Shown piece by piece: positions 4,364 through 60,009 of a DNA stretch of 64,000 bases. The notes under the pieces were generated by a model. It saw only the letters and a list, made by a program, of their open reading frames with translations, had not been told where the DNA came from and did no database searches. The stretch spans positions 54,189 to 118,188 of the forward strand of contig BLSF01000092.1 of NCBI GenBank assembly GCA_012862575.1, read 5' to 3'. Within the stretch, counting starts at the first letter, position 1; each line of letters begins with the position of its first letter. The position numbers and the translations under genes are program-made. Source of the stretch: Parietichytrium sp. I65-24A. Lineage: Eukaryota > Sar > Bigyra > Thraustochytrida > Thraustochytriidae.

Positions 4364-7300
4364 TCAGTCGCTGGAGAATATGGAAACTGGGGGAACGTCC
4401 CAAGGTACCTTCTTTCCAGAAGGCAGCTTAGCTTTGCGCACAACCCGGATTCCCTTTTTGTGGACTGGACCGTCCAAAATATCCTGGATTTTGTCCAATT
4501 GGGACGGCTTCAAGTCATGAATGCCATGGTGAGAGACGAACGAAGTGTTATCAACTACCACCTTGTCTTTCCAAGCCTGCTTTTCGCGTGCAACAGCCAA
4601 CTTTCGCTCCTGCTCAACACCATCACCGCCCATATGCACGGATTGGAAAAAGTCCGGATTTTTGGTTCCGTCCTGGTTGTACCCACCGAAGACCTCATAG
4701 TCATTCGTCGGCATGCAATCAAAATTCGATTCTGACTTGGTCCTGAACTCCCGTTTCTCCTCCCAAGGAACCTTTAACTCCTCTGACCTAGCCTCGCTAA
4801 CTTCAAGACCACGTCTCCTGTCTTCCTCAAGAGAGCGGGCCACTGGATACACGAAGCCCCGCTTGGTGATAAATTGGTCTCGCGCACGCTGAGCCTCGTC
4901 GCGAGCGACTTGATCCTCATTGACCAAGCTGAATCCAAGACTCTGAAAGTCCTTAGAGTACGTGTACGTCGCGTTCTTGTGTTTGGACAGCTTCTTGCGC
5001 AACGCTTCTTGACTTTTCTCCACAAAGTTGAGTTTTTGGCCAGAGTATGTGAATATCTCTCCGTTTGGCCCACCAAACTGGCGCACCAGTTCCTCATCTG
5101 CATCTCTTCTTCGTTCCATACGCTCTTCGAATTCTTTACGAACTTTTGCTTGTTCCACTCGGCTCTCCGCCAAAAAGTCTCTTGTAGTACGATTCGCGAT
5201 TGCTCGCTCGAATTCCGGGTTGCACGACACGGTTGGACCTTTGAGGCGACTGTTCGCGAAGCCACCATCCTTCTCTTCAACATTACATCTAGAGTCCTCA
5301 ATCTGATTTGAGCTTGCAGGAATCGGGCTGGTCTCATGGGAGGGTCTCTGAGAGAGTTTGACTGATCTTCTTCGAGCTGCAGCTGGAACCCCGTCAAGGT
5401 CCTCTATTGATACACTTTCGCCGTATTTGGACTCGAGCTTGGAGAGCATCTCCACGGTCGGGAAACTTTGTGTTCTTGACAAGCGCTTGCTTCGGGTGAC
5501 ACTTCTCAGAGCAGTCAAAAGGAGAAGAGCTTGTCTGCACGTCTCTTCGACTTTAAACGAGTCATAGATGTCAGGAGAGAGCATGATGTAACGCAGCGGA
5601 TCACGCAGCCGAATTACCTTGAGATCAACGTCAAAAGATGCGTAAAGCCTGTTCACGTAGCGCACCTGGGAATTACTGATGACTCGAACTTGGTCAGTGT
5701 TTCGGATTCGCGGGAGTGAGTTGAGAAACCTGGTTATCGAGCCGTCTCCAACGCCCTCAACGACTATAATTCGAAATTCGTCGTCCAACACCTGAAATCC
5801 AGTGAGAATATCGAGCTCCCCGTTGTTGGCAGACTGCCGTTCGTCCTCTCGAAGCTGATACGACCGTAGACTTTCCACGTGAGGCACTGCCTGCTGGTTG
5901 ATTTCGTTGTACGTCTTCCGAAGAAGAGTCATCATATCCCTGTTGCGGTATTCCATTAAAACAACAACTCGCTCAAATAATGGTGCGCGTACGCCCAAGG
6001 TACGAGTTGCACGGGTTACAATTGCCGATGACGGAACGGTGTTGGTGTCTTCCAAACACAGACGAGCATTCTGGGATTCTATTGAGAGATGGTGGTGATG
6101 CAACGGAACGGATATACTTGCGCTCAGACGAACTTGCGTGTCAGCTTCGAAATAGCGGCCAGGCTGCCTCACGAGATATTCAACCTCCGAAAGGTCGAGC
6201 TCTGCCCTTTCCACTTCTCCTCCAACCGGAATTTTACGCTTTCTCGGAGCAACAGTCGCTCGCAGCGAGACGCTTGCCGCTTTGTTGCTCTTTCCGAAGG
6301 GAGTTTGTCCGATACCGTGGAGATCTTTCCTTAGTCTGTTGGCCAACTCTTTGGAGGAGCTCCAGAGCTCATCTAAAGCGAACGTTGCCACACCGCATGC
6401 CTGTTGTTCGCTATCGCTCTCTATGATATGGGAATACTTGGTCCAAGCCTCTCTATCAAGGTCTGCAATAATTTTCTGCAGCTCCGGGGCTGCGGGTTCC
6501 GAAGAGGTTGCTTCAAGCGCATCCTTGTCCTTCTGTGCAGGTGCCTTCTTGTCCTTCTGTTTTGCCGAGTTTGTCGCTTCTTTCCGGGCGCTGAGAAGAC
6601 TCTCTTGGCTGGCGACGTCTGCATACTTTCCGCTCATTTCCTCTACCAATGCTTTCACAGCATTCGTTGTTGTTACCAGTCGCACGTCCCGGTCGTGAAG
6701 AGTGACAGTGACTGGCTCGCTCTCCAGCTGCTCTGCAAATTTGTCTCGACTCAAACTTCCGACCAGTATGGTGGTCTTTAGTCGCATATGCACGTGTTTC
6801 GCACCTTGTTGATAGCCTACGCTGCGGATAAGACGCTCTTGTGGAATGGCAGACTTAAAAATCGTCATGCGAGCGTAGATCGGTTCGCAATAGCGCTTGA
6901 CCAGGAGGAACGGGTCTCTCAGGCCAGTCTCCTTGTCTTGAATACAGCTTTCCATCTTTGGATTCCCGTGCTCCACGATTGTTCCGGGCAATGCTTTCAC
7001 GGAAGTTATTTCAAGTGTCAAAGGGTTGAGAAGGCTGGTTAGTTGCTCAGATAATATGGCGGATTCCGCAACTACTGAGATGCGAACTGCGTCGATCATG
7101 TCTGTGCAAAAGTTTGGCGGGGCAACTAGGTGATTTGAATCTCCAAATTGGCCCCACTGACCACTCAGTTGGAGCTCCCCATCAAGTAACGGAGACGCGT
7201 CCATCGAGAATGCGCCAATCCACTCCTCTTTGCTATTGCAAGCGCTTATGACCAAGGTGGAGTCATCGTTTAACCGATTGGCCCACGCTGCGTCCACGCA

Positions 7301-21334: not shown

Positions 21335-24300
21335 TCACACAACCTGCAGTTCATCGTCCCCCCCTTCCGATGGCAGTGGGTAGTTGAGAGAGATATTTTG
21401 CGTGGGCGGAGATGGCTCAGAATGTGCTGGAGCCGAGGTACGGTGCCCCTCGTCTACCGGTGCACCTCGACCAGCCGCGGCGGATGGTTCGCGAGAAGGG
21501 GAAGAAGGTGGAGGAGGTGAAGAGAGCACCTTTAACGCGTTTTCAATCTCCAAACGCACCCCTGGAGCATGTGATTCAATCGCATTCCAGGTGAGCTCCC
21601 AGATATTCTGACCACCATTCATCGACAGCTTTCCAAAAAGGCCTTCACCCTGCATCACCATGATGAGGTTTTTCAAGTTCTCCAGAGTCGACTCTCGAAC
21701 CGTCTCCTCGCCCTGCAAACGTTTGCTCATGAAGTTGATGAGCCTTAACCACAGGAGATGCAACTCTGGGGCCGAGCTCAGCGCGCTTATGTTGTAAAGA
21801 AACGCGCGTGTCAACAAATTGATGCTCCGAATCACTGCAGCCTGGTTCCCAGCGTGCACGCACTGATCGACGAGCGGGAACAGGATTTGATCAAAGATTT
21901 CGGCCCACTTGAGCTCTTCGGCTCTCTCATCGGAAGACCACAGCGCCTTTTGCAGGCATTGGGTTGCAGCAGCAGCTACTTCCGGCCGCGGATCCGCAAA
22001 CCAGGTGCGAAGTTGAACAATCATAAGAATCCAACACTTTTCCTTGTCTGGAAGAAGCAGATCACTGGACTGATTCACCACGTAAGAACCGTTGCCAGCA
22101 CTAACAATTTCATGAGTAACGAGACCGCCTCCTACTGAGTCGTCGGCATCGCTTGGGGACTTGGTGGCCTCACCCTTGCTTTCAGAAAAGCCACCCTGGA
22201 TTTCGGTGCGGTTCGCCTCGGCTTTTTGATATGGAGAGCAAAAGTCCGAGTCTTTCGAAAGGATCTGTCTCGACAACTCAAAGATCAGACGAACGCCTTC
22301 TGCGCCTCGCTCTGCCGCCCATCTTTTAGAGATATTCCTCACCTCCGACTGAGGCTGGCGGATCTGGTGGTTTTGATCGGATTGAACAGGAGATCCGCCA
22401 CTTGCTGGCGCGACTGGAGAGGCGCGTGGCGCAAGCGCGCCTTTCTCATCATTCCGAATAAACACCTTGATGACCTCCAGAACACTATTCATGTTGATTC
22501 TGTTGACATGACCACAATGAACAATGTTTTGTGTAATGTCCCAGGTCGCGTCAACTGAGTCCGCAAAGTGGCTAAATCTTTCCAGCAAGCGACACACTAT
22601 TCTCCACTCGACTGCAGTCTTGAAATTGCCCCCATTGAATCTCAGCACCATCGAAAGCCCCGATCCAATACGTGAGGCAAGTCGCTCGCAAATTTCGTCT
22701 CCAAAGTCCGCAAGCCAGTTGAGTGCGCCGAGGAGGGATGGCAAAACCTCCAACTTGTCCACCATGTGTACACCAATACGGAGCAAGCTCACAACCACGC
22801 GTTCCACCACAAAGAGGGAGCACTGGCCGACCTTCCTAACACGATGAGGGCGTTTACTCAAAACTTCCGCGGAAATACTCGATCTTCGGCTCCGAGCACC
22901 ATTCTTGGCCCCTTCGCTGCCGTGGCCATTCGCCTGTTTTGCGACGGCCTGCTCTTCAACCTCCGGAGCGTCTTCCACACCGGTCGACGGAGCCGCATTG
23001 GATTGTGCATGGTTTGCAGATTGTGGCGGCGAGTGTTTCTCCGGTGTCACCATCTCCTGTGGATCGTCATCGCCCTCGGGAACCGCTCCGGCGTTCACCA
23101 ACACTTGGCGATAAGCTCGGCGAAGCAGTGGCCAGACCTTGGCAATTCGCTCAGCATTGGCCAGGCCTACCTCCGTCAGGAGCTCGACGCAAAGCACCGT
23201 GTTCCGCTCAAAAGAGGGCAAGCCGCCGGGCTGGTCACCTTCATCGTCGGATGCAAAGGCAGGTTCTTCCAAAGGGACGAGCAGTGCGTCCAAGAGAAGA
23301 ATCAGAGAGTCCTCGGACAACAGCTTGGAGCGAACAAAAACAGAGCTCATGCGACATGCGGAGAGGGTTTTCCGGATCAGGTCCTTGCATATCATATAAT
23401 TTTCGTCCATTTCTTCCTCTTCGGACCAAATGAACGAGGTCAAGGTGCTGAAGAACCCACCACCGCTTGTCGTGCGTTTCGCTTTCTGTGAGCCGGATTT
23501 CCCTTGGTTCGGGCGAAAGCTGGAGCTCGCATTGACGTGCGACATTTTCTGGCTGCTATGGTTTGGACTCATGTCGCCAGCAGTCGTTGGAAGGCGATTT
23601 CCGTGAGCATCGACTACGTCATCGACTTCAACGAATGAGGAGGGAAGAAGGTCGTACTCGTGCATGGCCAGAAGCGTCTGTATAAAGTTTCTCCAGGATT
23701 CGCGCATAAAGTTACCATACTGCTTGGTGAGCGACAGCAAGGCGCGAAAGGTCAGCAAGGCACGACACGATGGATGTGCCGCAAATCTCTCGGCGCGGGC
23801 CAAGGAGCTGGCTAGTTTGACCTTGCGCTTTTGCGAGCGTGTTGCTGCGATCGTAGCATCGCGCAAGGCGGTGAGACCTTCCACATCTGCTTCAGATTGC
23901 CCTCCCTCTCCGAGGGCGGGGAAGAAGCGCAGAAAGTATCGACACAGAGTAATCATGATCCTATTGAATTGATCACTCATTTCGAAATAGACTGCAATCT
24001 TTCCAAGGTTTCGGAACCCTTCAAGAGCCCTCGCTGCCATTTTGCCATCATAAGTCATCTCAAACATGACGGATATTGACTGCATGGACGAGTCAAATGT
24101 GATCGCAAACATATCGCGCTCGTGAACACCGGCACGAAAGTTACCCAATCGACCAAATCCTTTAGGAGTGAACATCGCCTTGTCCACCATCTGCGAGTGA
24201 CGAAGTACGGTGTCCCATGTCGGGCCACTACTTGACATGGTTTTGGGGCCCCCTGTTGCAGGAACATCCCCGGAGAAGTCGTCGATGTTGAGCCCGTCCG

Positions 24301-27145
24301 CAGAGTGCGGATCATACAACATCCGCATTTGCTCGTCTTTGATAGCATTGTACACACATACGAGAAGAGACTCGGGAAGGTTCTCCCCTTCGTTGATGTT
24401 CCGGTTGTTTCGAATAAACTCGTGCAGCTTCATTTTCTTCTCAGCGGGGATCACAGGATTGTGGAGGTCAGTATGCAACATGATAATCGAAAAGGCGAAA
24501 ATGAATGCAACATCAGCTGACTTGAATACCCCTCGCGTTAGAGAGCTTTCGTCCCACTCAGTTCCCGAGACGGTGGATACTTTCCCTTCGCCTTCTGCTG
24601 GAGGAGGGCTTTGAGCCTCAGCAGACTGATTCTGTTGGAAGAGATGATTCCCGAAGGCTTCCATGAGGCGATCAACCTTTTGAGCCTCGCCAGGAAGGCG
24701 GAAACTCTCCAAGAGCATGCGCAAAGCCAAGTCGATCCGAACGCCCTTGAAGTCAAAGCTCTGAATGTAAGCCTTCATAACATCAAAATTAAATGGCTTC
24801 CGCTCGGGATCTTCTGAGATATATTCACCGACAGCCGACTTATCCAGTCCCGGGGTGTTAAGAAAGAATGCTGCGACATCAGACGGACTCGCCGGGTTGG
24901 GCAGAATGCCAAGATCTTGCGCATATTTTAGCCAGTACTGCTTCGTTGGCTGCTTGTTAAATTGTCGAGCAGCTAAAAGCAACCGACGTTTCATGCGCTT
25001 TCTCTCTCGCAGCGCGTTTGCTTTGCGTTCGCGGGCGTTTAAGAGCCAAGCAAAGTCATCATCCGCGCCTGCCTCAATAGCATTCACACTGCTCGAATCG
25101 GATTCCATGCCTGAGTCAAAGTCAACCTGTTTCAGCTGCTTGACGCGCCTGTCTTCTACACCGGCTTGCTGCGAAAGAGATACTGATTCTCTTGAAGACT
25201 TGGTAAAAGAAACATCGGGCTGTTCACCACCTGCGCTCTTATCGCACCGGCGAGCAATCGCATCAATCACGGCCAAGACACCTTCCAGAGCCAATGCCTC
25301 CAGAACGGTGACACCGCCGGTGCCTGGCACATCAGAGTCCACTTGCTCACTCGAGATGGCCATGATGTGGTCCAAGCTGGAAGAAAATTCTTCCGTGGAA
25401 ATGAAGGAGTACACGTTGTCATCATCGTCGTAGCACTCCTGGCCTGTGCCTGTCAGGGTCCTAACAAAGCTGGCGTCACTAGACAAGACTGCTTTCGGAA
25501 TGGAGCACCGGCAAAGGCATTTACACAACGTCTCAAAAAGATTGGTACATCGGAAATCACAGTCGTAGTTTGTGTACAAATCGAGCATCAATGCTGGCTC
25601 CCTGCAAAAATCGAGCAACGACTCTAAGGCCAGCTCCTTCTGTTCGAATGTGGCAGATGGGGATTCTGCGATTCGGAGGTGGACGCTCGTGAGAAACACC
25701 TCGAGCTGTACCTTGAGATGGCCCTTCATGGCACTAAACAAATTGAAGATGACGCGCAGGGTCAAAGATAGAACCGACAAGTCCAGCGACTGTGAGTTTT
25801 GCAACAGGTGCTTGCAAAGGTCTCCTTGGAGAACCAGGATAATTGGAGAAGTCTCTTGAGCAAGTTGAGGTGTTTCGCTACTTGGTACGCTGGTCCCCAA
25901 AACTTCTCCGCCGCTTTCGAGAACGATATTAATTAGCTGAAGAGCAAACACCCTGGTTGATTCCGGATTGCGACTTGGATCTGTAAGCTCGGCCAAAAAC
26001 TCGAGGACCCGGACGAGGACGTGGAGACCATACGATTCTGCGGTGGAATGCGGGGCCTTCTTCTGTAGAGCAGCTATAGCCGCACTCGCATTCCCAAATT
26101 TAATCGGTTGGAGCATTCGATAGAGCATTTCGTCGGGGTCCTCCTCCATGCTGCTTGTCGTACTCAAAGCAGTTGAGGACGGAATCCTCTTCGTGCCAGA
26201 TCCCAGGTTCTCCACCCCTCGCACAGAGGAAGTTGCCTCATCCCGAGAGAGCTTTATATTCTCTTGACCAGCTGGAGTAGAAGCTGAGCGTGGGGAGCTA
26301 GCTGCGCGCGCACGTTCGGGAACCGCTTCCGTCTCATTTTTCTCGTCCTCGTCCTCCTCCTCGTCGTCCGAAGCATCGGAACGCTCGTTACTATCGTCTG
26401 GTAAGAATGCGCCATCACCGCTTTGGCGACGCGCTCTATGCCAGGAAACGAGGCTCTCGTGGTACCCATCCGGCGGCCCTGCGAAGTCAACCTTGCGGCT
26501 CGAATAGGCACTAATTGATTCAACAGAAATGAGCTCCGCGGAGCGGCTGAACAAGGTAAGGATTAAATGTGTCAAGGAATTCGCCGCAGTTCGGCGAAGC
26601 AGCTGGCTCGTACCGCCTTCTGAAGTCAGCCTGTAACATGTCTCTACCATTTTCCAAACGTTCACGTCCGAAATATATGTGCCGGCGGGGCAGCGGAGTA
26701 AATTGACCATAACCTCCAACAGCTGCATGAGAACGACCTCATCGTTGTACGAGTTGGTCGCCTCAAACTTGCACTCCACCACAGAAGCCACCGCGAGGTT
26801 GATCGCCTCTCGTCCTCTCGGAGACTCTTGTGTCACCGAGCCGTACAACAGAAATTTGTTGATAGAAGACAGCGCGCGCCCGGTCATGGCGCCATTGGTG
26901 TTCGGGAAAGCCACAACATCCAAGAAGGGCTGCAGATAAGCCACGGCGTCCACATCGCTGATATCTTCGAACGGCTGCAAGTAATCATGGAGACCTTTCA
27001 GCGATCGGATCAGAGGATTCTCGAAATCGGACGGTATCTCCCTGATAAACCGTTCCTCCGAAGCCCAGCGCCCATTTCTCCGCATCGTAGAGAGCACATT
27101 GTGGATCTCGCTGCGCACGCAGTTCAGGCACTGCGACCCATCCAT
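21335..27145 (-). CDS. GBF1: Large Sec7 ARF-GEF of the GBF1/GNOM class
   Basis: Single 1936-aa frame from ATG 27145, no intron needed. It activates ARF GTPases on Golgi/ERGIC membranes. Domains: DCB region 1-200 with LQPFLDVVAF...GRALSSINKFLLYG, typical of GBF1/GNOM; acidic low-complexity linker 250-340; HUS box around 527-538 (YDCDFRCTNLFE); Sec7 domain about 735-945. The catalytic glutamic finger is Glu820 in FRLPGEAQK. The second Sec7 motif reads FIFAFSIIMLHTDLHNP. Downstream HDS regions include CRMSSVFVRSKLLSEDSLILLLDALL split over 1280-1310 approximately. The tail is Pro/Ser-rich. DCB and HDS favour GBF1, while the Sec7 core reads somewhat BIG-like, so the subgroup is less sure than the family. 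Upstream (27268-27350) is a sense-strand GA tract. Confidence 0.9.
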   Translation of the reverse strand: MDGSQCLNCVRSEIHNVLSTMRRNGRWASEERFIREIPSDFENPLIRSLKGLHDYLQPFEDISDVDAVAYLQPFLDVVAFPNTNGAMTGRALSSINKFLLYGSVTQESPRGREAINLAVASVVECKFEATNSYNDEVVLMQLLEVMVNLLRCPAGTYISDVNVWKMVETCYRLTSEGGTSQLLRRTAANSLTHLILTLFSRSAELISVESISAYSSRKVDFAGPPDGYHESLVSWHRARRQSGDGAFLPDDSNERSDASDDEEEDEDEKNETEAVPERARAASSPRSASTPAGQENIKLSRDEATSSVRGVENLGSGTKRIPSSTALSTTSSMEEDPDEMLYRMLQPIKFGNASAAIAALQKKAPHSTAESYGLHVLVRVLEFLAELTDPSRNPESTRVFALQLINIVLESGGEVLGTSVPSSETPQLAQETSPIILVLQGDLCKHLLQNSQSLDLSVLSLTLRVIFNLFSAMKGHLKVQLEVFLTSVHLRIAESPSATFEQKELALESLLDFCREPALMLDLYTNYDCDFRCTNLFETLCKCLCRCSIPKAVLSSDASFVRTLTGTGQECYDDDDNVYSFISTEEFSSSLDHIMAISSEQVDSDVPGTGGVTVLEALALEGVLAVIDAIARRCDKSAGGEQPDVSFTKSSRESVSLSQQAGVEDRRVKQLKQVDFDSGMESDSSSVNAIEAGADDDFAWLLNARERKANALRERKRMKRRLLLAARQFNKQPTKQYWLKYAQDLGILPNPASPSDVAAFFLNTPGLDKSAVGEYISEDPERKPFNFDVMKAYIQSFDFKGVRIDLALRMLLESFRLPGEAQKVDRLMEAFGNHLFQQNQSAEAQSPPPAEGEGKVSTVSGTEWDESSLTRGVFKSADVAFIFAFSIIMLHTDLHNPVIPAEKKMKLHEFIRNNRNINEGENLPESLLVCVYNAIKDEQMRMLYDPHSADGLNIDDFSGDVPATGGPKTMSSSGPTWDTVLRHSQMVDKAMFTPKGFGRLGNFRAGVHERDMFAITFDSSMQSISVMFEMTYDGKMAARALEGFRNLGKIAVYFEMSDQFNRIMITLCRYFLRFFPALGEGGQSEADVEGLTALRDATIAATRSQKRKVKLASSLARAERFAAHPSCRALLTFRALLSLTKQYGNFMRESWRNFIQTLLAMHEYDLLPSSFVEVDDVVDAHGNRLPTTAGDMSPNHSSQKMSHVNASSSFRPNQGKSGSQKAKRTTSGGGFFSTLTSFIWSEEEEMDENYMICKDLIRKTLSACRMSSVFVRSKLLSEDSLILLLDALLVPLEEPAFASDDEGDQPGGLPSFERNTVLCVELLTEVGLANAERIAKVWPLLRRAYRQVLVNAGAVPEGDDDPQEMVTPEKHSPPQSANHAQSNAAPSTGVEDAPEVEEQAVAKQANGHGSEGAKNGARSRRSSISAEVLSKRPHRVRKVGQCSLFVVERVVVSLLRIGVHMVDKLEVLPSLLGALNWLADFGDEICERLASRIGSGLSMVLRFNGGNFKTAVEWRIVCRLLERFSHFADSVDATWDITQNIVHCGHVNRINMNSVLEVIKVFIRNDEKGALAPRASPVAPASGGSPVQSDQNHQIRQPQSEVRNISKRWAAERGAEGVRLIFELSRQILSKDSDFCSPYQKAEANRTEIQGGFSESKGEATKSPSDADDSVGGGLVTHEIVSAGNGSYVVNQSSDLLLPDKEKCWILMIVQLRTWFADPRPEVAAAATQCLQKALWSSDERAEELKWAEIFDQILFPLVDQCVHAGNQAAVIRSINLLTRAFLYNISALSSAPELHLLWLRLINFMSKRLQGEETVRESTLENLKNLIMVMQGEGLFGKLSMNGGQNIWELTWNAIESHAPGVRLEIENALKVLSSPPPPSSPSREPSAAAGRGAPVDEGHRTSAPAHSEPSPPTQNISLNYPLPSEGGDDELQVV

Positions 27146-29136: not shown

Positions 29137-30219
29137 ATGGTGGTGCCCATGATTCAAAAGCATCCCTACACGGCATTCGTGCCTGAGGCCGCGACTGAAA
29201 AGCGCGAGCTGAAGCGTGTTGTGCTCATTGTGAATCCAAAGTCTGGAGGACAGCGTGGAATCACGATATTGAAACAGGTCAAGCCGATTTTGGAGAAGGG
29301 CGGGTGCGATGTCAAGGTGTTGTACACCAAATACGCTGGTCACGCCAAAGACCTCGCGCACGACGAGGACTTGAGTGAAGTGGACGCCTTCTGTCCGATT
29401 GGAGGAGACGGCACCGTCCACGAGGTTGTCAATGGCTTTATGTCCCGCAGCGACTACGAGGAATTGAAAGACCGCGTGACGATTGGCATCATCCCGGGGG
29501 GCTCGGGCAATACTCTTGCATATGATCTTCACCTGAGCACCCCAGTGAAGGCTGCCAAGCTCATTGTTGCTGGCTCAACACGGCGAATCGATTGCGCCAA
29601 AGTTGACGCTGTCGGCGAAGGAAGTGCACTGGTGGCCGCTGCGGGACAACCGGAGGCAGAAGACGGCGACAAGAAGGCTGCACCTGCCAGTAGCAGTACC
29701 ATCTATTCGATCAACATCATTGGCTACGGTCTTCCTTCCACGGTTATGAAAGTTGCGAACAAGCTTCGCTGGCTCGGTGGGGCCCAGTACAATCTTGCGG
29801 CATACCACAGTCTTCTACGAAACAAGGGTTACTATGCGGACATCGAGATGGTCGACAAGGACGACAATGTGATTACCGTATCTGGCAAGTACGCAATGAT
29901 CCAAGCTCAGAATACCATTCACATGGGGGACAGAATGGCTTTCGCTCCTGACGCCAAATTGGATGATGGTATGCTGGATCTCATTCTCGTCGAGCATGGG
30001 AGCGTAGGCAAAATGCTCGGCACCATGACCGCAGCAAAGAAGAGCAAGCACCTTCGCCGCAAAAACGTAAAATCGTACCAGGTCAAGTCGTTCAAGTTAA
30101 CGCCAAAGAAGACGAAGCTCATCGGCGTCAACACTGTAAATGTGGACGGTGAGTTGGCATCTGTAACTCCATTCCAGGCCACTGTGCTTCCTAAAGCTCT
30201 CCGGATGGCGGCCCCATAA
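29137..30219 (+). CDS. DAGK-domain lipid kinase (diacylglycerol/sphingoid-base kinase family)
   Basis: 360 aa from ATG 29137, no intron. Phosphorylates a lipid hydroxyl with ATP; the substrate could be diacylglycerol, a sphingoid base or ceramide. The N-terminal nucleotide-binding lobe carries VLIVNPKSGGQRG (29-41), the signature GGDGT (89-93) followed by VHEVVNG, and GIIPGGSGNTLAYDL (117-131). The C-terminal beta-sandwich includes SINIIGYGLP and the LDDGMLDLILV strand typical of the family. The protein has no C1 or PH domain and no membrane helix, so it is a minimal catalytic unit, as in sphingosine-kinase and YegS/DgkB-like enzymes. Neighbouring lipid genes include an acyltransferase and a sphingolipid synthase, but there is no operon. 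Confidence 0.9.
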   Translation: MVVPMIQKHPYTAFVPEAATEKRELKRVVLIVNPKSGGQRGITILKQVKPILEKGGCDVKVLYTKYAGHAKDLAHDEDLSEVDAFCPIGGDGTVHEVVNGFMSRSDYEELKDRVTIGIIPGGSGNTLAYDLHLSTPVKAAKLIVAGSTRRIDCAKVDAVGEGSALVAAAGQPEAEDGDKKAAPASSSTIYSINIIGYGLPSTVMKVANKLRWLGGAQYNLAAYHSLLRNKGYYADIEMVDKDDNVITVSGKYAMIQAQNTIHMGDRMAFAPDAKLDDGMLDLILVEHGSVGKMLGTMTAAKKSKHLRRKNVKSYQVKSFKLTPKKTKLIGVNTVNVDGELASVTPFQATVLPKALRMAAP

Positions 30220-44792: not shown

Positions 44793-45992
44793 ATGGCAGC
44801 ACAGGAACAGCAATCTTCGCTGGGACAGCAAAGAGACCTGAGCTTTGATTCTTTGAACGAAGCGGAGTTATGGGGCATTGACGGAGGGCAAAGGCCACAG
44901 AGGATTCGCGCGTCTAGGTTGCGCTGGGCTGCAATTTATGCCGTCTCCAGCATGTACCTGGGGTGCTACTTTGTAATCCTTGCCCATCGACGAGGACTCG
45001 ATGCATTCGGAGAAGCCACAAAGGGTCCCAGCCAGCCGCAACAAGATGAAGACCCTGTCGGCGACCCGACATACAATATAAGTAGCACAGGTCAAGATGT
45101 CGGGTCCAAGTGTGTCTTCTCATTGCCAGATCTGGGCTTCGACCTCATTCCTGCTAGCTCACTGCCAGAGTTGGCGGAGTTTTGGGTCTTCTTTGGCGTA
45201 TTGGTAACCATCGCGCGGTTTATTTTTAGTCCCATGGGAAGAACGATCACCCGACGTTGGCTTTTCTGCGCGGGAAGTCTTTCTCTAATCCGCGGCCTCT
45301 CAAGGCTTTGCACTGTTCGCCCAGTTCCGGAAAACAGCTGCGAGTTTGAAGATGACCGGTCGATGAGTGCAGCGTGGGTTGCTGCGTTGGTCTTTCTTCG
45401 ACAGGCGCCCACCTGCGCCGATGTGCTCTTCTCGTTGCATGTGGTGAATTTGTCTTTGTGTGCCTTGGTTTGGTTCTACTATCTGCACGTTGTGAAGGAG
45501 ATGAAAGACATGCAAAGGGCGGTGAAACAAGTCGTTGTTCTGTACCTCCTTTCAGGCTACTACCTCATCTTGGCAACTCGAACTCATTACACGGCGGACA
45601 TATTTTTGTGGTGGGTATTAACATTTTTTACTTGGACCTGGTATCACCAATGGATTCTGCTGGTCCGCTTAGACTATTTACATTTGATCGGTGGTGACAG
45701 GCTCGCGCCTTACAATGTATTCTCCAAGGCCACCCTCTGGTTTGAAGAAGAAGCAGAAGATCTAGACTTGAAAGAGTTCTCCGTCCTGGACGAGGCGCGC
45801 GAGGACTCGGTTCACCGCAAACAAAGTGTGCAATCCTTTGAGGAGGATCCCGAATACGACGCCGCATTTGCTGACGCGTCTGATGTACAGATTGCGTTTC
45901 ACACATCTGTGCCGTTTATCTCAAACCCTACCAGAGCCCCCACCCCTTCTGCCCCACTGAGGTATGAGTCGTTCACAAGGCTAACTGGCTGA
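44793..45992 (+). CDS. Sphingomyelin/inositol-phosphoceramide synthase-like enzyme
   Basis: 399 aa from ATG 44793; the frame extends upstream 74 codons only with a GTG start. About six membrane helices. It should transfer a phospho-head-group from a phospholipid to ceramide in the Golgi or plasma membrane. Family motifs in order: TRRWLFCAGSLSLIRGLSR (D2 region, 153-171), CADVLFSLHVV (D3, 208-218) and THYTADIFLWW (D4, 264-274). The catalytic residues His216, His265 and Asp269 are all kept. The D3 motif normally reads C-G-D-x3-S-G-H-T; here Gly is replaced by Ala and Leu, and Thr by Val. The acidic C-terminal tail is cytosolic. Head-group specificity (choline, ethanolamine or inositol) is undetermined. 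Confidence 0.83.
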   Translation: MAAQEQQSSLGQQRDLSFDSLNEAELWGIDGGQRPQRIRASRLRWAAIYAVSSMYLGCYFVILAHRRGLDAFGEATKGPSQPQQDEDPVGDPTYNISSTGQDVGSKCVFSLPDLGFDLIPASSLPELAEFWVFFGVLVTIARFIFSPMGRTITRRWLFCAGSLSLIRGLSRLCTVRPVPENSCEFEDDRSMSAAWVAALVFLRQAPTCADVLFSLHVVNLSLCALVWFYYLHVVKEMKDMQRAVKQVVVLYLLSGYYLILATRTHYTADIFLWWVLTFFTWTWYHQWILLVRLDYLHLIGGDRLAPYNVFSKATLWFEEEAEDLDLKEFSVLDEAREDSVHRKQSVQSFEEDPEYDAAFADASDVQIAFHTSVPFISNPTRAPTPSAPLRYESFTRLTG

Positions 45993-49137: not shown

Positions 49138-51162
49138 ATGACGCAGTCTCTGCGGTCTTGCGAAGGCGACAGCAGAGACAGCAGAGACAGCAGAGACGGC
49201 AAGCGTGGAGTAGTGATGTTGAGCGAGAGGCTGCGCACTGCGAGCGACGCCACGATCATGTCCACGGACATTGACGAGGACGCGGACGAGGAGGAAGAGG
49301 AAGAGGAAGAGTACGACGATGGGCGTCTCCGGGGAAGCGCTCTGTCGGGCTCGGCGGCTGCGATGGGGTTGGCGATTAAGCTTCCGATAAAGGAATCGGT
49401 AGAACACCAGGGCGGGTTGGAGACGCCTGCGGAACACACGCCACACTCGGGCGTGCGGAGCGAGTCGTGCGACACGCTGTCGTCGCTTGATTTGAAGTTT
49501 CCTGGCCCTGACCAGCCAAGGGAAGCGCATCTTTTCGCGGGCACGGATTCTTCGATGGTGGAGACGCTCAGCCAAGGGATTCGAACGTTCAACCTGAACC
49601 CGATCCGAGGCATTGACTTCATCCGCAAGAAAGGTCTGGTTCATTTCAGCAAAGGTGACGACGAGGGAAACGCTAGACGCGTAGCGATTTTTCTCAAGCA
49701 CACCCCGGGGCTCAACAAAGAACAAATTGGCAAGGTACTCGGGTCCGAAGACAACGAGCATGTGGAGATTCTCAAGAACTACTTTCTCCTGTTTGACTTT
49801 TCGAGCTACGGGCCAACCATTCACGGACTAGAGAACGGGCTGCGTCTCGTATTCAGCTGCTTCAAGCCCCCTGGTGAGTCTCAAAAAATCGAGCGGATTC
49901 TCACGGCGTTCACGGACAAATTTACAGAAGACAACAATATGAAGAACGGACAGCCCGAGAATGCCGAGTTCAAAGGGTCCTCAGCATTGGTGCTTGCGTT
50001 CAGTATTGTTCTCCTCAACGTGGACCTTCACAACCCTAACAACCCACAGCGAATGTCCCGGCGAAACTTTGTTCGAAACAACCGCGGACTGGATGACGGT
50101 GAAGATTTTCCCGAGCAGGAGATGCTTAGACTGTACGAACGGATTCTCCGGAACGAAATAAGACACAAGGTGGACAGAGATGAAGTAGCGGGCAATCTCT
50201 TCACTCAGCCGGACAAGTGTGGGTGGCTGAGTAAGAAAGGCGCTACAAAATTGTCCAAGTGGAAGCGAAGGTGGTTTATTCTTTCAGTGAACGCCCTATA
50301 TTACTTTCGCGACTCGGAAGACGTCGACTTCTTGGGGTTTATTCCTCTCGAAAATGTACTCGTGCGGACATGCTTCGATGCCGAGAACGAGGTTCATGCG
50401 CAATCATCATCCATGAACTCACGCCAAAACTCGCAGTGCCTTACTCCAGCTTCTCAGCTTTCCGTCGGGAAGGAGAGCGTAGTCGTTGGGTCGCCCTCTT
50501 CTGCTGGCGCACTTGTGAAGAGAAAATCAAAGTACATGCCCAAGTTGGCACACTCTAAAAGCGAGGGCATCATTCGGGGGTCAACACCAGGCACAACTGA
50601 CAAAGATCGCAAGAGAATGTCTCGACGCAGAGATTTCTGGTTTGAGATTTACCATCTAGATCACCGCCTTAATGTGAAAAGTGCGAGGATGACCAAGACC
50701 GGCTTAGATTTGGGTCAGCATCGGACAATCAAGCTCCGCGCGTCAAGCCGCCAAGAAATGGAGAGCTGGGTTGAGGTGATCAACAAAAAGGGGACCTTCA
50801 ACACTCTTATCGAGCGCGCCCGCCTGGTCCGTCAAGAGTCTTCAGAGGCGGGATCGATTCCAGACTCCATATCTGTCTCTACACGGAGCTCAACGAGCTC
50901 CAGGCAGAACCGCATTTCTGCTCGGTTTCGGCGAATGATCTTTTCTAGGCGAAGTCTGCAGGCGAGCCCGTCCTCAAATTCTCTCTTGTCGACGCCCGGA
51001 AGTAAGGAGCTGGAAGACGAAGACTTTAATAGCGAGTCTGCCTTTACTGCGCATTCCTCGGTACTGGAGACGAGTCCTCAGCCTTCCGAAACATTTGAGC
51101 AGGAGAGATCTGAGACGCTGCAACCTCCACAGCCTTTGTCTGCTTTAGAAACTCAAGGGTAG
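49138..51162 (+). CDS. Cytohesin-like Sec7-PH ARF guanine-nucleotide exchange factor
   Basis: 674 aa from ATG 49138; the frame opens earlier only with a TTG. Small ARF-GEF acting at plasma membrane or endosomes. The N-terminus is acidic (Asp/Glu run around 45-60). Sec7 domain about 157-345: FLKHTPGLNKEQIGKVLG, glutamic finger Glu247 in FKPPGESQK, and LAFSIVLLNVDLHNP. A PH domain follows at once (from about 360) with CGWLSKKGATKLSKWKRRWFIL, the basic phosphoinositide-binding strand pair. It is split by a Ser-rich insert of roughly 85 residues before the second half (FWFEIYHLDHRLNV to MESWVEVINK). A basic Ser-rich tail follows. Cytohesins have a coiled coil before Sec7; this one does not. Confidence 0.91.
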   Translation: MTQSLRSCEGDSRDSRDSRDGKRGVVMLSERLRTASDATIMSTDIDEDADEEEEEEEEYDDGRLRGSALSGSAAAMGLAIKLPIKESVEHQGGLETPAEHTPHSGVRSESCDTLSSLDLKFPGPDQPREAHLFAGTDSSMVETLSQGIRTFNLNPIRGIDFIRKKGLVHFSKGDDEGNARRVAIFLKHTPGLNKEQIGKVLGSEDNEHVEILKNYFLLFDFSSYGPTIHGLENGLRLVFSCFKPPGESQKIERILTAFTDKFTEDNNMKNGQPENAEFKGSSALVLAFSIVLLNVDLHNPNNPQRMSRRNFVRNNRGLDDGEDFPEQEMLRLYERILRNEIRHKVDRDEVAGNLFTQPDKCGWLSKKGATKLSKWKRRWFILSVNALYYFRDSEDVDFLGFIPLENVLVRTCFDAENEVHAQSSSMNSRQNSQCLTPASQLSVGKESVVVGSPSSAGALVKRKSKYMPKLAHSKSEGIIRGSTPGTTDKDRKRMSRRRDFWFEIYHLDHRLNVKSARMTKTGLDLGQHRTIKLRASSRQEMESWVEVINKKGTFNTLIERARLVRQESSEAGSIPDSISVSTRSSTSSRQNRISARFRRMIFSRRSLQASPSSNSLLSTPGSKELEDEDFNSESAFTAHSSVLETSPQPSETFEQERSETLQPPQPLSALETQG

Positions 51163-55653: not shown

Positions 55654-58600
55654 TCAAATTGGCGGCTGTCGTTGTGATTGTGGATATCGTGGCATTTGAA
55701 TCCCTTGAGAGCTTTCTCGTGCCTCGTATTTCGACTGCGGAGCATAACGCTGACTAGATTGTTGTGGTTGCGAAAACGACCAGCTGCCTTGGCCGCTACT
55801 ATGAGGCGCTGAACGACCAGCCAGCATAGATCCGTACGGGTCCACCACAGACAGAGAGAGCTTCGATCTTTGGCCAGTCGTGGACTCGATCGTGATGAAG
55901 CCAAGGCGCGAGAAAATGCTGTATAAACCCGTCGCAGAAGTGTTGCCGCCCTGCGCTGCGCTGCTGCCCGGACTTGCCGAACTCTTTCGCACCTCGATGA
56001 ATGACTTGAAGATTTTCATGACGAAAATATGAACAAAGTTCGAGATTGCCAACGACACAAAGAAAAAGTAAGCCCCAACATCGATTCGGGCAATAAGCGC
56101 AAAGCAGGTAGCCTGCACATCCCGGTCTGTCACCACGTCCACCGACATCAAGAGGTCCATGATCGGCTCCACGAAAGAGCAACGATCTTTGACGAGCATG
56201 CTGGTCGCATTCTCCAACTCCAAGACTGTTAAGATCGCCGCAAGTACGAAAACTTCAGTTCCGCACCACGCACAAAGCAGATTGTTTCTCTCCTGGTACA
56301 CAATAGCCTCCTCGAGCGTAAATGACTTGGTGGAGAGCAGAATGAGGTAAGCCAGTTGTATTGCAGGGATTACGAGCACAGAGAGAACAAAAACGATGCC
56401 AAAGTATACCTTCCCAAAGCTAAGATCTGCAAAAGTGTCGCCAATGAAAGAGTACAACGAGAAGCCTTTAATGGTCTCTTGAGCATCAAACTCCATCAGC
56501 ACGCGAATAATGCCCACGGTTTCGAGCTCAAGAACCGGAATGGCCCCATTGATGAGCAATAAGACAAGCGCCAACGAAGCAAATACAGTGAGAGCGCGCT
56601 GCCCGCGTCTAGACAGCGTTAGGTAGAACTTGGTGCTTCCGTCTTTGTTGTGGACTGCATAAGTGGTCTCCAGCACAGAAAGCTTTTGCATAGCCGTCGG
56701 TGCGGAGTGGATCTCGTCAAACGTCGCAACATGTTTGATACGCTTTTGGAAAACAAACACCACGTTGCTCACGCCAAGGGACAAGAGCAATGCAGTGATG
56801 AAAGTGTATAGGCTCAGCTTGGGAATGAGATTCAGCTTGAGAGAGTAGGCGTAGGTGTCACTAGGTAGATAGGTCTTATCCTGTGGGCTGTGAACCTCGA
56901 TGGAGAGTAACACCAACACGAACGCAACGAAGAAAAGCTCCACCAAACTCCACTTGCCCAGCTGGTCGAGGAGCGTGATGACGGTGTCGCGATTTTTGAA
57001 ACTCAAGATGCGAGAAGGCGCGAACCAGGTAACCAGCACACCAAAAATTTTCATGTATGGCCAGAGGATGGAGAAAACAAACAAAAGTCCTGCCAGGAAT
57101 TTAGCTCCGCCCTTCCACAGTTCCAGAGTCGTAGACACCACTGAGAACTCTCCAAACTCCTCAATGTTAATTGGCATTCCAGCAGCTGTTCCTTCGACCC
57201 CGGCGCCCATCACTGGTCCGGTGTGACCAAGAACAAACATGAAAAGATTCAATAATAGCAGTCCTGGCACGGCGATTTTCGCCCACAGAGGAACGGAAGG
57301 GTGATGAAACAGGGCAATTTTGGTCAGATCTTGGGCCATTGGAGACTGCTTGACTGGTTCCGCGTAATACAATGAGCGTGAGTGGTCATCTCTGACACCC
57401 TGGTGCACAGCTGGGCGACGACCAAAGCGGCAGCCGCAAAAGCACATGCCAGCTGCAGCAAGAACACTGCCAAACATGCCCGCAAATACATACGCAGATC
57501 CGAGGGGCTCGTGAGAAATGGCGCTACCAGAAAGAGATTCTTCGCACTGCAGTTGCGCATTCCGAACCGTTTCCTCCCAGGTGTCTTGTGCATAAGGCTC
57601 GACAATATTGTTTGCAAAGTTTTGCATCAAATCGTTGATGGCTGCAGACATGTCTTCCGACGCAACTACACTTTGCAGTTTGTTCGCCCACTCCTCGAGG
57701 ACCGCGCTCTCACAGTTGGTACATTCCAGAGATACTGTAAAACCGCGCAAGAGCATAAAGAATTCCCTTACGCCGCCATAAGGATCGAGTTTCCCCACCC
57801 AGCAGTCCAGGTTAATAGCCTCTGCGACTTTCATGCTCTCCACATCATAGATGCTGAGGGTCGCTAGTAGATCGAGCACAGCTTCGAAATTTTCGAAGCC
57901 AGCTGTAAGCACGAACTCGTTGGACTGCGTGTACTCCCTGCTTGGTGCATTTTTTGACGCGGTTTTGAAACTGTTAAATTCAAGGCTGAGGGACAACGAG
58001 AACGGGAGGGAACTATTTGCGATATTGAGCCCACTGTACAGGTCTTGCGGGTCCTCAGAAGTAGCTCGGAACAACTTGGCCTCCTGAATAGCCGGCGGGG
58101 CTCCATTCCGCAGACTAAGAGAATCGAGAACAAGCTCCAGCGAGACCTCGTTCCCAGTTGTCGCGACAAAATTCGGAATATCAAGCTCCAAAAGTTTAGT
58201 TGGTTCACTGACCACAACTGCGACTCCATTCGAGTCTGCTTCCCCAAGGCTTGCCATCGCACTTGCAAGAAGCTCCGGGTTGACCATATCGGAAATGTTT
58301 CGAACAATTCCGCGACTAAAATCGTACATTGTTTGCTCGGTGTAAGTTGTCGCTTCAGCGAGTGGGCACTCGCTTGGCTCGTCCACAAATGTTAGATTCG
58401 TCAGCGACTCAGCGAGAAATGTGGGAATTCCAGCTTGATATGGCTTTGCGAGTGTGTTCACAAGATCGCCCGCAAGAACTCCGAGGCCATCCACAAAACC
58501 AGAAAGAGCAATTGTCACACCAGATGATTGCAACACTGCTGCTGACAACGATGGAGAAGGTGAGTAGAACGTTGACAGAGCACAGGTCCCCAGATGCTCC

Positions 58601-60009
58601 ACGAGGGGGCCCAGCTGTAGAGATTTGATGGAATTGAGATCGATTGCTAACAGAGCGGCAAGTTGCGCCAGAAATGAGCCCCAATCCAGGTTGAACTCTA
58701 CGTTCTCCTCAATACTAAGAGAGATCATCTGATCGAATAACGCGTCGGTGGCGATATCAGCTTTCATTCGAAACGTTGCAAGAAGGCTCAAATCTCCAAG
58801 AGATATGTCTGTGAGGCCCAAAGTGTGCGCGGCAACCATCTGAAACGTGAGTAAGCCATCGAACAATTCTTCATGGCGCGCGCTCAGCCGAACACTGTCA
58901 ATCTCAATCTCGAACGCGCCAAGGTCTTCGAATTCAGAGGAGAATGACACAGTTTGTGAATCTAATTCTGCTCCCTCAGCGGTTCCCAGAACATATCGGA
59001 GAAGAGGCATTAGGTCGTAATCAATAGAATCTGTTTTGGAGAAGACTGCGTGCAATGCGGACACCACTTCATTATCCAAACCATCAAGCTTCTCCAGAAG
59101 GTTTGTAACATTTATTTCGAGACTATCGTTGCCCGAATCCTCTCCGAGAACCAAGTTTGTAACTGGATTGTTTCGCAAATCAATGAGGTCAACATTACTC
59201 GGGATGTCGCCAAGCTGATCAGACTCTTTCGTTCTTGCATAGTCTTGGAAAGTGACTCCAGCGCCAAGGCCGTACTCGGGAAGTTTTGTGAGCGGGTTGG
59301 ACATGGCAAGCTCATTAATTGTGGTTCCCAGGTCCGCCAACAAATCGCAGACGGCGTTGGAGATTGGCTCCACCGCAGTGCTTTTAAATGGCCCATTGAG
59401 AGCCGCGACAATGAGTCCCGATATGTCAATCCCAATGACTTTGACAATATCTTCTCCTTCAAACGTGACCCCGTCCATCTGCACCTTTTCGGAGCATGGG
59501 CTATCTACACTAACAGCCTTTGACGGCGGTTTTGTTGAGAAATTCTCGCTGAGCATGACGGTTCCAATGTTTACAATGCTTTTGCTTGCTGCGGAGGAGA
59601 TAACAGTGATAGTCCCGTCGCAATCATGTGTCCCCAGGCTGGTGTCCACGCAGATTCCAACAGTGCATCGCAGTCGCACATTCTGAAGACTGAGGCCGAC
59701 TTGATAGGACTCGTACTCGATGCCATCAACAACTTGCTTGGCGTCGCCAAAGACTCCTGAGACAATCACATCGTCCAGCCCAAAGCTTTCGCAGTTTGTT
59801 GTGTTGGCAAGTTTCGCTGTTGCGGAGAGGCCCAATGCGCCAACTTCAATCGGGTCAACATCGCTTGTATCGACAGGAATCTTTAATGATCCAAGAACAC
59901 TATTTATGAGCTCGTAGCTTCCCGCAAGTCTTCTCTCCACTCGCTCGGAGTCACTCGCGCCACTGATCCCCGCCTGCAGCACCAAGCAAAGAACAACCGG
60001 CGCCCGCAT
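55654..60009 (-). CDS. Fusion of a TULIP/BPI-like secreted domain with two PqiA/LetA-like membrane domains
   Basis: 1451 aa from ATG 60009, one uninterrupted frame. Residues 1-19 are a signal peptide. Residues about 30-830 are extracytoplasmic and rich in beta-strand and Leu/Asn patterns. VGLSLQNVRLRC (104-115) and EPISNAVCDLLADLG (214-228) resemble the start of BPI/TULIP lipid-binding domains, possibly repeated later. A helix (838-860) with a CFCGC cluster follows. Two related four-helix blocks then appear, about 905-1095 and 1135-1340. The first has LLDQLGKWSLVELFFVAFVL (1013-1032), close to the LG-x-W-S-[ML]-x-[DE]-[VL]-F hallmark of bacterial PqiA/LetA. The Gln/Ser-rich C-terminus (1345-1451) is cytosolic. 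Bacterial PqiA works with MCE proteins in lipid transport, so lipid transfer is a plausible role. PqiA likeness is fairly secure, TULIP likeness tentative. Confidence 0.75.
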   Translation of the reverse strand: MRAPVVLCLVLQAGISGASDSERVERRLAGSYELINSVLGSLKIPVDTSDVDPIEVGALGLSATAKLANTTNCESFGLDDVIVSGVFGDAKQVVDGIEYESYQVGLSLQNVRLRCTVGICVDTSLGTHDCDGTITVISSAASKSIVNIGTVMLSENFSTKPPSKAVSVDSPCSEKVQMDGVTFEGEDIVKVIGIDISGLIVAALNGPFKSTAVEPISNAVCDLLADLGTTINELAMSNPLTKLPEYGLGAGVTFQDYARTKESDQLGDIPSNVDLIDLRNNPVTNLVLGEDSGNDSLEINVTNLLEKLDGLDNEVVSALHAVFSKTDSIDYDLMPLLRYVLGTAEGAELDSQTVSFSSEFEDLGAFEIEIDSVRLSARHEELFDGLLTFQMVAAHTLGLTDISLGDLSLLATFRMKADIATDALFDQMISLSIEENVEFNLDWGSFLAQLAALLAIDLNSIKSLQLGPLVEHLGTCALSTFYSPSPSLSAAVLQSSGVTIALSGFVDGLGVLAGDLVNTLAKPYQAGIPTFLAESLTNLTFVDEPSECPLAEATTYTEQTMYDFSRGIVRNISDMVNPELLASAMASLGEADSNGVAVVVSEPTKLLELDIPNFVATTGNEVSLELVLDSLSLRNGAPPAIQEAKLFRATSEDPQDLYSGLNIANSSLPFSLSLSLEFNSFKTASKNAPSREYTQSNEFVLTAGFENFEAVLDLLATLSIYDVESMKVAEAINLDCWVGKLDPYGGVREFFMLLRGFTVSLECTNCESAVLEEWANKLQSVVASEDMSAAINDLMQNFANNIVEPYAQDTWEETVRNAQLQCEESLSGSAISHEPLGSAYVFAGMFGSVLAAAGMCFCGCRFGRRPAVHQGVRDDHSRSLYYAEPVKQSPMAQDLTKIALFHHPSVPLWAKIAVPGLLLLNLFMFVLGHTGPVMGAGVEGTAAGMPINIEEFGEFSVVSTTLELWKGGAKFLAGLLFVFSILWPYMKIFGVLVTWFAPSRILSFKNRDTVITLLDQLGKWSLVELFFVAFVLVLLSIEVHSPQDKTYLPSDTYAYSLKLNLIPKLSLYTFITALLLSLGVSNVVFVFQKRIKHVATFDEIHSAPTAMQKLSVLETTYAVHNKDGSTKFYLTLSRRGQRALTVFASLALVLLLINGAIPVLELETVGIIRVLMEFDAQETIKGFSLYSFIGDTFADLSFGKVYFGIVFVLSVLVIPAIQLAYLILLSTKSFTLEEAIVYQERNNLLCAWCGTEVFVLAAILTVLELENATSMLVKDRCSFVEPIMDLLMSVDVVTDRDVQATCFALIARIDVGAYFFFVSLAISNFVHIFVMKIFKSFIEVRKSSASPGSSAAQGGNTSATGLYSIFSRLGFITIESTTGQRSKLSLSVVDPYGSMLAGRSAPHSSGQGSWSFSQPQQSSQRYAPQSKYEARESSQGIQMPRYPQSQRQPPI

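Follow-up and report, generated by a model that had tools for sequence, protein, structure and literature searches.

The window considered here, a stretch of 64,000 nucleotides from the thraustochytrid Parietichytrium sp. I65-24A (contig BLSF01000092.1 of assembly GCA_012862575.1, positions 54,189 to 118,188 of the forward strand), contains a gene whose protein joins a secreted arm of three tandem units, predicted to have the TULIP fold, to a membrane part resembling the bacterial LetA/PqiA proteins. The protein probably transports lipid as a single chain within the eukaryotic secretory pathway, with the tandem-TULIP arm taking the role of the MCE tunnel. In bacteria, the MCE tunnel LetB receives its lipid from LetA, the component seated in the inner membrane. 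The gene is a single uninterrupted open reading frame (ORF) on the minus strand, 55654..60009 of the window, with 1451 amino acids from ATG to stop and 1463 codons from stop to stop. An earlier note on this DNA had read from the letters a signal peptide, an extracytoplasmic part of ~800 residues and two PqiA blocks with the motif LGKWSLVELFF, and this layout is borne out by the intact ORF, the hydropathy and the match to Pfam PF04403. The features, in window coordinates, are as follows.

55654..60009, minus strand: whole gene, single-exon and complete, 1451 aa, with signal peptide, three TULIP-type units, transmembrane (TM) helix, LetA/PqiA-type membrane part and cytosolic tail
59956..60009, minus strand: signal peptide MRAPVVLCLVLQAGISGAS, residues 1-18, read directly from the sequence; most paralogs also have hydrophobic N-termini
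59224..59922, minus strand: predicted TULIP unit 1, residues 30-262, with conserved Cys172 and Cys221 and VIA matches
58330..59022, minus strand: predicted TULIP unit 2, residues 330-560, with nearly invariant Cys476 and Cys548, Foldseek matches to LBP/BPI and a VIA match to LBP
57532..58242, minus strand: predicted TULIP unit 3, residues 590-826, with Cys736, Cys763, Cys766 and Cys822; predicted local distance difference test (pLDDT) about 75-80; recurs in longer paralogs
57433..57489, minus strand: TM1, residues 841-859, from hydropathy and the positive-inside charge pattern; the chain passes here from outside to the cytosol
56740..57297, minus strand: block A, LetA-like transmembrane, residues 905-1090, with four helices and an extracytoplasmic beta hairpin; Pfam PqiA at 955-1034, sequence match to LetA 9n8w, and fold
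56929..56961, minus strand: PqiA hallmark LGKWSLVELFF, residues 1017-1027, with Lys1019 invariant in 15/15 aligned paralogs
55990..56598, minus strand: block B, LetA-like transmembrane, residues 1138-1340; second Pfam stretch; the VIA alignment to LetA covers protein residues 904-1341
55654..55989, minus strand: Ser/Gln-rich cytosolic tail, residues 1341-1451, plus stop codon, read from the sequence

The ectodomain of the window protein has ~820 residues (about 20-840) and is acidic. It was modelled by AlphaFold2 with 15 paralog rows, at a mean pLDDT of 55, and the model was compared by Foldseek with 350,542 PDB chains. The first 18 rows were all TULIP-superfamily proteins, led at E about 3e-6 by LBP (2.7e-6) and BPI (3.5e-6), with the LBP/BPI range extending to 8e-6; these E-values come from whole-chain models of low mean pLDDT, and the low template modelling (TM) scores that go with them are attributed to unreliable domain placement in the models. 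Der p 7, Takeout, beta-carotene-binding protein, JHBP, SPLUNC1 and SMP (Mdm12/Mmm1) followed in later rows. In the VIA comparison, unit 1 matched CETP 2obd (Z 8.2), Der f 7 (Z 7.9), BPIFA1 (Z 7.3) and Takeout (Z 7.2) over model residues 12-226, that is to say protein residues 29-243, and the CETP row extended into unit 2. Unit 3 matched BPI 1ewf (Z 5.8 over protein residues 606-816) and the SMP domain of Mmm1 (Z 5.4), while unit 2, which matched LBP 4m4d (Z 5.6 over residues 351-546), is the weakest TULIP assignment of the three, because the region is also covered by StARkin and capping-protein rows whose Z is similar. These two folds were set aside for unit 2, since their VIA Z values of 5-6.5 lie inside the warning range of the tool and the other units are not covered by them. 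The VIA Z values are modest throughout, and it is the consistency of the fold class together with the Foldseek E-values that supports a TULIP fold for the modelled ectodomain. At the level of sequence, neither PF01273 nor PF02886 matched the window protein, the paralog ectodomains or the genome, where no positive control responded in the search; therefore, the protein is assigned to the TULIP superfamily by fold and not to either of these families. It has been reported that remote TULIPs usually show low sequence similarity (PMC6791001). The earlier note had likened only the start of the ectodomain to TULIP domains: the resemblance stands, and its restriction to the start does not, because three units of TULIP type fill the whole ectodomain.

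These units, each of ~300 residues, are arranged in tandem, and the repeat was demonstrated through the longer paralogs, because the similarity of one unit to another within three-unit proteins is not significant: in hhalign comparisons, units 2 and 3 came out in register at a non-significant E of 0.084, and nothing was found for units 1 and 2 or for units 1 and 3. A hidden Markov model (HMM) was built from the membrane-adjacent units only and searched against ectodomains from which those units had been removed. It matched upstream units in 7/7 long paralogs, with E between 7e-17 and 3e-7, whereas none of the 315 reversed or shuffled decoys did better than 7e-4, and the unit starts were spaced at about 300-340 residues. 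The cysteines give a second, independent count. The ectodomain of the window protein has twelve, not counting the signal peptide; the three-unit paralogs conserve most of these, and the pairs inferred from their spacing are 172-221, 476-548 and 736/763/766-822; in the paralog L014, the pairs, inferred in the same way, are 203-246, 500-581, 788-876, 1132-1218 and 1419-1507. Since the HMM repeats and the cysteine count agree, five units are assigned to the long forms and three to the short ones.

The membrane part matches the Pfam PqiA model PF04403 in two stretches (E 2e-10, 41.2 bits against a cut-off of 23.8). The score against NCBIfam TIGR00155, the PqiA/YebS subfamily, is only 24.7 bits against a cut-off of 260.35, and by this sequence measure the membrane part is a relative of that bacterial subfamily and not a member of it. 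A profile of 15 paralog membrane parts matched one of 177,635 PDB sequences, namely LetA/YebS, at E 1.8e-4 and over both hallmark stretches. The kinship to LetA/PqiA, which the earlier note had put up for comparison of structures, was found again in the predicted fold: Foldseek ranked E. coli LetA 9n8w first, with E 1.4e-7 across 445 columns and claudin and TARP folds in the rows after it, and VIA aligned the model to the same structure with Z 14.9 over 322 residues (root-mean-square deviation 7.4; protein residues 904-1341), the next rows being TARP and claudin proteins at Z 11.1 and below. These comparisons support a LetA fold shared by the two homologous 4-helix blocks as modelled. LetA itself is reportedly likened to the tetraspanin/claudin/TARP fold in a 2025 paper. 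By hydropathy, the helices of block A are 910-928, 975-993, 1021-1039 and 1069-1087, and those of block B are 1142-1160, 1205-1223, 1244-1262 and 1316-1334. Lys and Arg make up 12.7% of the predicted cytosolic loops against 7.0% of the predicted external loops, so that block A, like that of LetA, starts on the cytosolic side. The Lys of the GK/RW hallmark, together with several core prolines and glycines, is invariant across the paralogs.

The gene belongs to a family of considerable size. Searches started from PF04403, from the window protein and from a long paralog agree on 22 PqiA-domain loci, all of them inspected, in the genome, a eukaryotic assembly of 42.5 Mb in 172 contigs. Among them, 15 carry a TULIP-type ectodomain: seven have three units (ectodomains of about 780-1,030 residues), another seven have five (about 1,500-1,600), and one, L026, is unclear or partial. 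A paralog on contig C39 aligns to residues 6-1337 of the window protein at 30% identity (E 8.7e-149), from which it follows that the architecture is not due to chance. The seven other loci (L019, L021, L023, L025, L027, L028 and L029) consist of the membrane part without a TULIP ectodomain; CAQC and CKTC motifs reminiscent of a zinc ribbon are seen in L027. The five-unit member at L017:1131-7897 has one frame break within the membrane part (near 6443-6581), either an intron or the mark of a disabled copy. Beside these, L030:4600-7113 (minus strand) encodes a secreted-type protein related to the ectodomains; it lacks a PqiA part, carries a single TM helix at its C-terminus and could be a stand-alone partner.

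In a maximum-likelihood tree of the membrane parts, which has long branches, the five-unit genes group together with a support of only 77/47; one change suffices to place them, a value as low as that being reached in 0/500 shuffles, and 3 changes are enough for all three architecture labels, where shuffling gave a mean of 9.9. Since the number of units follows the tree of the membrane part, ectodomain type and membrane part have been inherited together, and repeated independent fusions need not be assumed. No relatives of the protein were found in viral contigs or prokaryotic genome contigs, and the membrane part was therefore not traced back to a bacterial source. The earlier note had also asked for a check on the absence of MCE proteins: a six-frame search for MCE PF02470 gave no match in this genome and did match 4/14 control genomes; the assembly has gaps, so absence is not fully proven.

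The combination itself is not new. It had been thought that no system of this design was described, and this is contradicted by Wong and Levine (2017, PMC5507252), who in section 2.1 report CETP/BPI proteins of protists and amoebae with a C-terminal PqiA domain of 9-12 helices; like the window protein, these have an extracellular TULIP region followed by the PqiA membrane domain. In that section, the PqiA domain is a proposed lipid permease, whose ligands are possibly shared with the TULIP part. The TULIP–PqiA combination is thus already described, in one paragraph and a figure panel and in uncharacterised form; the window protein is another member and may be related to the very proteins described there. 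Nothing is said in that text of arrays of three or five units, of how large the family is within one genome, of a match to the LetA structure or of MCE proteins being absent; the multi-unit forms may already be drawn in its Figure 1A. Among the matches listed in a full-text search, no other paper joined PqiA with BPI or TULIP.

Compared with E. coli LetA/YebS and PqiA (PF04403, TIGR00155; 9n8w), the window protein shares the two homologous 4-helix claudin-like blocks, the GK/RW hallmark, the cytosolic entry into block A and the extracytoplasmic beta hairpin. It differs in being eukaryotic, in its extra N-terminal helix and fused ectodomain, in having no MCE partner gene that could be found, in a score far under the NCBIfam cut-off and, as in the other fused members, in showing no visible zinc ribbons. 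With the BPI/CETP/LBP branch it has in common the predicted beta super-roll with a long helix, secretion and one Cys pair per unit; those proteins have one or two units, whereas here there are three or five, which are acidic, fused to a membrane part and without a match to PF01273/PF02886. The MCE systems LetAB and PqiABC likewise combine a LetA-type loader in the membrane with an extracytoplasmic lipid conduit, but the conduit there is a stack of hexameric MCE rings and here would be a covalent TULIP array.

In the proposed mechanism, the two-block membrane part with the LetA/PqiA fold would move lipid between the bilayer and its own extracytoplasmic pocket. The arm on the same side, of three tandem TULIP units (five in the sister genes) and probably stabilised by disulfides, would take lipid from that pocket or bring lipid to it across an aqueous gap, which may be the cell wall, the glycocalyx or the lumen of a vacuole. 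Lipid would be exchanged between the LetA-type pocket and unit 3, with the remaining units serving as its path or as its carriers beyond that point, so that the TULIP arm would stand in for the bacterial MCE rings (LetB/PqiB). The transport may serve either export or the uptake of lipid from the environment. Transfer between pocket and unit 3 would be the simplest course, because the TULIP arm of the same chain is the only extracytoplasmic partner in sight and TULIPs transfer lipids. It is stated in PMC5507252 that TULIP domains bind and transfer lipids, and that tunnel and shuttle models are still open for them. As a bolder and rather doubtful extension, the arms, with their units stacked end to end, might provide an unbroken hydrophobic route that leads from the LetA-type loader through the cell wall or over some comparable gap, which at about 6 nm a unit would span up to roughly 18 nm with three units and 30 nm with five. 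It is just as speculative that such an arm, whose length would be set by the number of units, is a eukaryotic counterpart of the trans-envelope MCE tunnels.

Several points weigh against a lipid transporter of this kind. The transporter role is proposed here from sequence and predicted folds, and for the ectodomain the TULIP call is made on predicted folds, because no sequence match to Pfam TULIP models or PDB profiles was obtained for the window protein or its paralogs. Both models, built on alignments of only 13-15 sequences, are moderate (mean pLDDT 55 and 59, predicted TM-score 0.40 and 0.45), which is why neither the position of the units relative to one another nor the continuity of a tube can be read from them. 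The zinc ribbons of LetA, a feature of the bacterial LetA/PqiA proteins that the PF04403 model does not require, appear to be missing, since the fused paralogs have no paired CxxC and only isolated CAWC/CAPC. In addition, arm and membrane part may also work apart, because some paralogs have no ectodomain and the L030 protein has no membrane part.

The lack of zinc ribbons would also suit a surface receptor or adhesin, whose TULIP arm senses lipids or lipid-bearing partners and whose LetA-type part is only a claudin- or tetraspanin-like anchor without transport. Claudins and TARPs, which are not transporters, do rank next after LetA, and an expanded, diverse family with long tree branches is often met among receptors; yet across the two blocks LetA clearly comes out on top (Z 14.9 against 11.1), and the invariant GK/RW Lys with the core prolines and glycines would be superfluous in an inert anchor, so that this explanation is unlikely. 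Still less probable is a membrane-anchored antibacterial or lipopolysaccharide (LPS)-binding protein of BPI type, although LBP and BPI are the nearest folds of the ectodomain and bacteria are the food of many protists. The LPS-binding tip of BPI is cationic, and such a role is disfavoured because all 16 ectodomains examined are strongly acidic, with a net charge of -3.7 to -10.8 per 100 residues (in the window protein, K+R 42 against D+E 120); moreover, it would call for neither a row of 3-5 units nor conservation of the LetA core.

A further possibility, less favoured than the cell surface and overlapping with the proposed transporter as a variant of it, is that lipid is carried inside an organelle, in the lumen of the endoplasmic reticulum, Golgi, vacuole or phagosome. 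Signal peptide and conserved cysteines place the arm only in the secretory pathway, where surface and lumen are not separable by sequence; the long five-unit arms (about 1,550 residues), on the other hand, suggest a wide gap, and in PMC5507252 such proteins are put in the plasma membrane, with no experiment stated in that section. A gene-model artefact, bacterial contamination or a chance fusion of two genes might come to mind because PqiA is mainly a bacterial domain, but it has practically no chance of being correct: the frame is uninterrupted, 14 further loci elsewhere in the genome keep the same order of parts, and the adjoining genes are eukaryotic (Sec7 ARF guanine nucleotide exchange factors (GEFs) and MRS2). 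It was rejected on the intact frame and those 14 paralogs.

If the transporter reading is true, eukaryotes have LetA-type lipid transporters in which a fused tandem-TULIP arm has been swapped in for the MCE tunnel. Two fields of lipid transfer would then be joined, and loader and carrier could be studied together in a single chain, the three- and five-unit forms of one genome being a natural test of tunnel against shuttle.

Among the other genes of the window, two within 30 kb encode Sec7-domain ARF-GEFs (21335-27145, minus strand, and 49138-51162, plus strand), one of GBF/BIG type with 1936 aa and one Sec7-PH. Lipid-related neighbours are a YegS-type lipid kinase (29137-30219, plus strand) and a PAP2_C protein similar to sphingomyelin synthase (44793-45992, plus strand), probably by coincidence. 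Searches for light-harvesting proteins and for elicitin gave no match, the elicitin control giving no signal either. Elsewhere in the assembly, contigs C7 (about 20-28 kb) and C66 (about 8-23 kb) contain uninterrupted frames of 4460 and 5583 codons, respectively, which resemble polyketide synthases/nonribosomal peptide synthetases and have three and at least five acyl-carrier domains.

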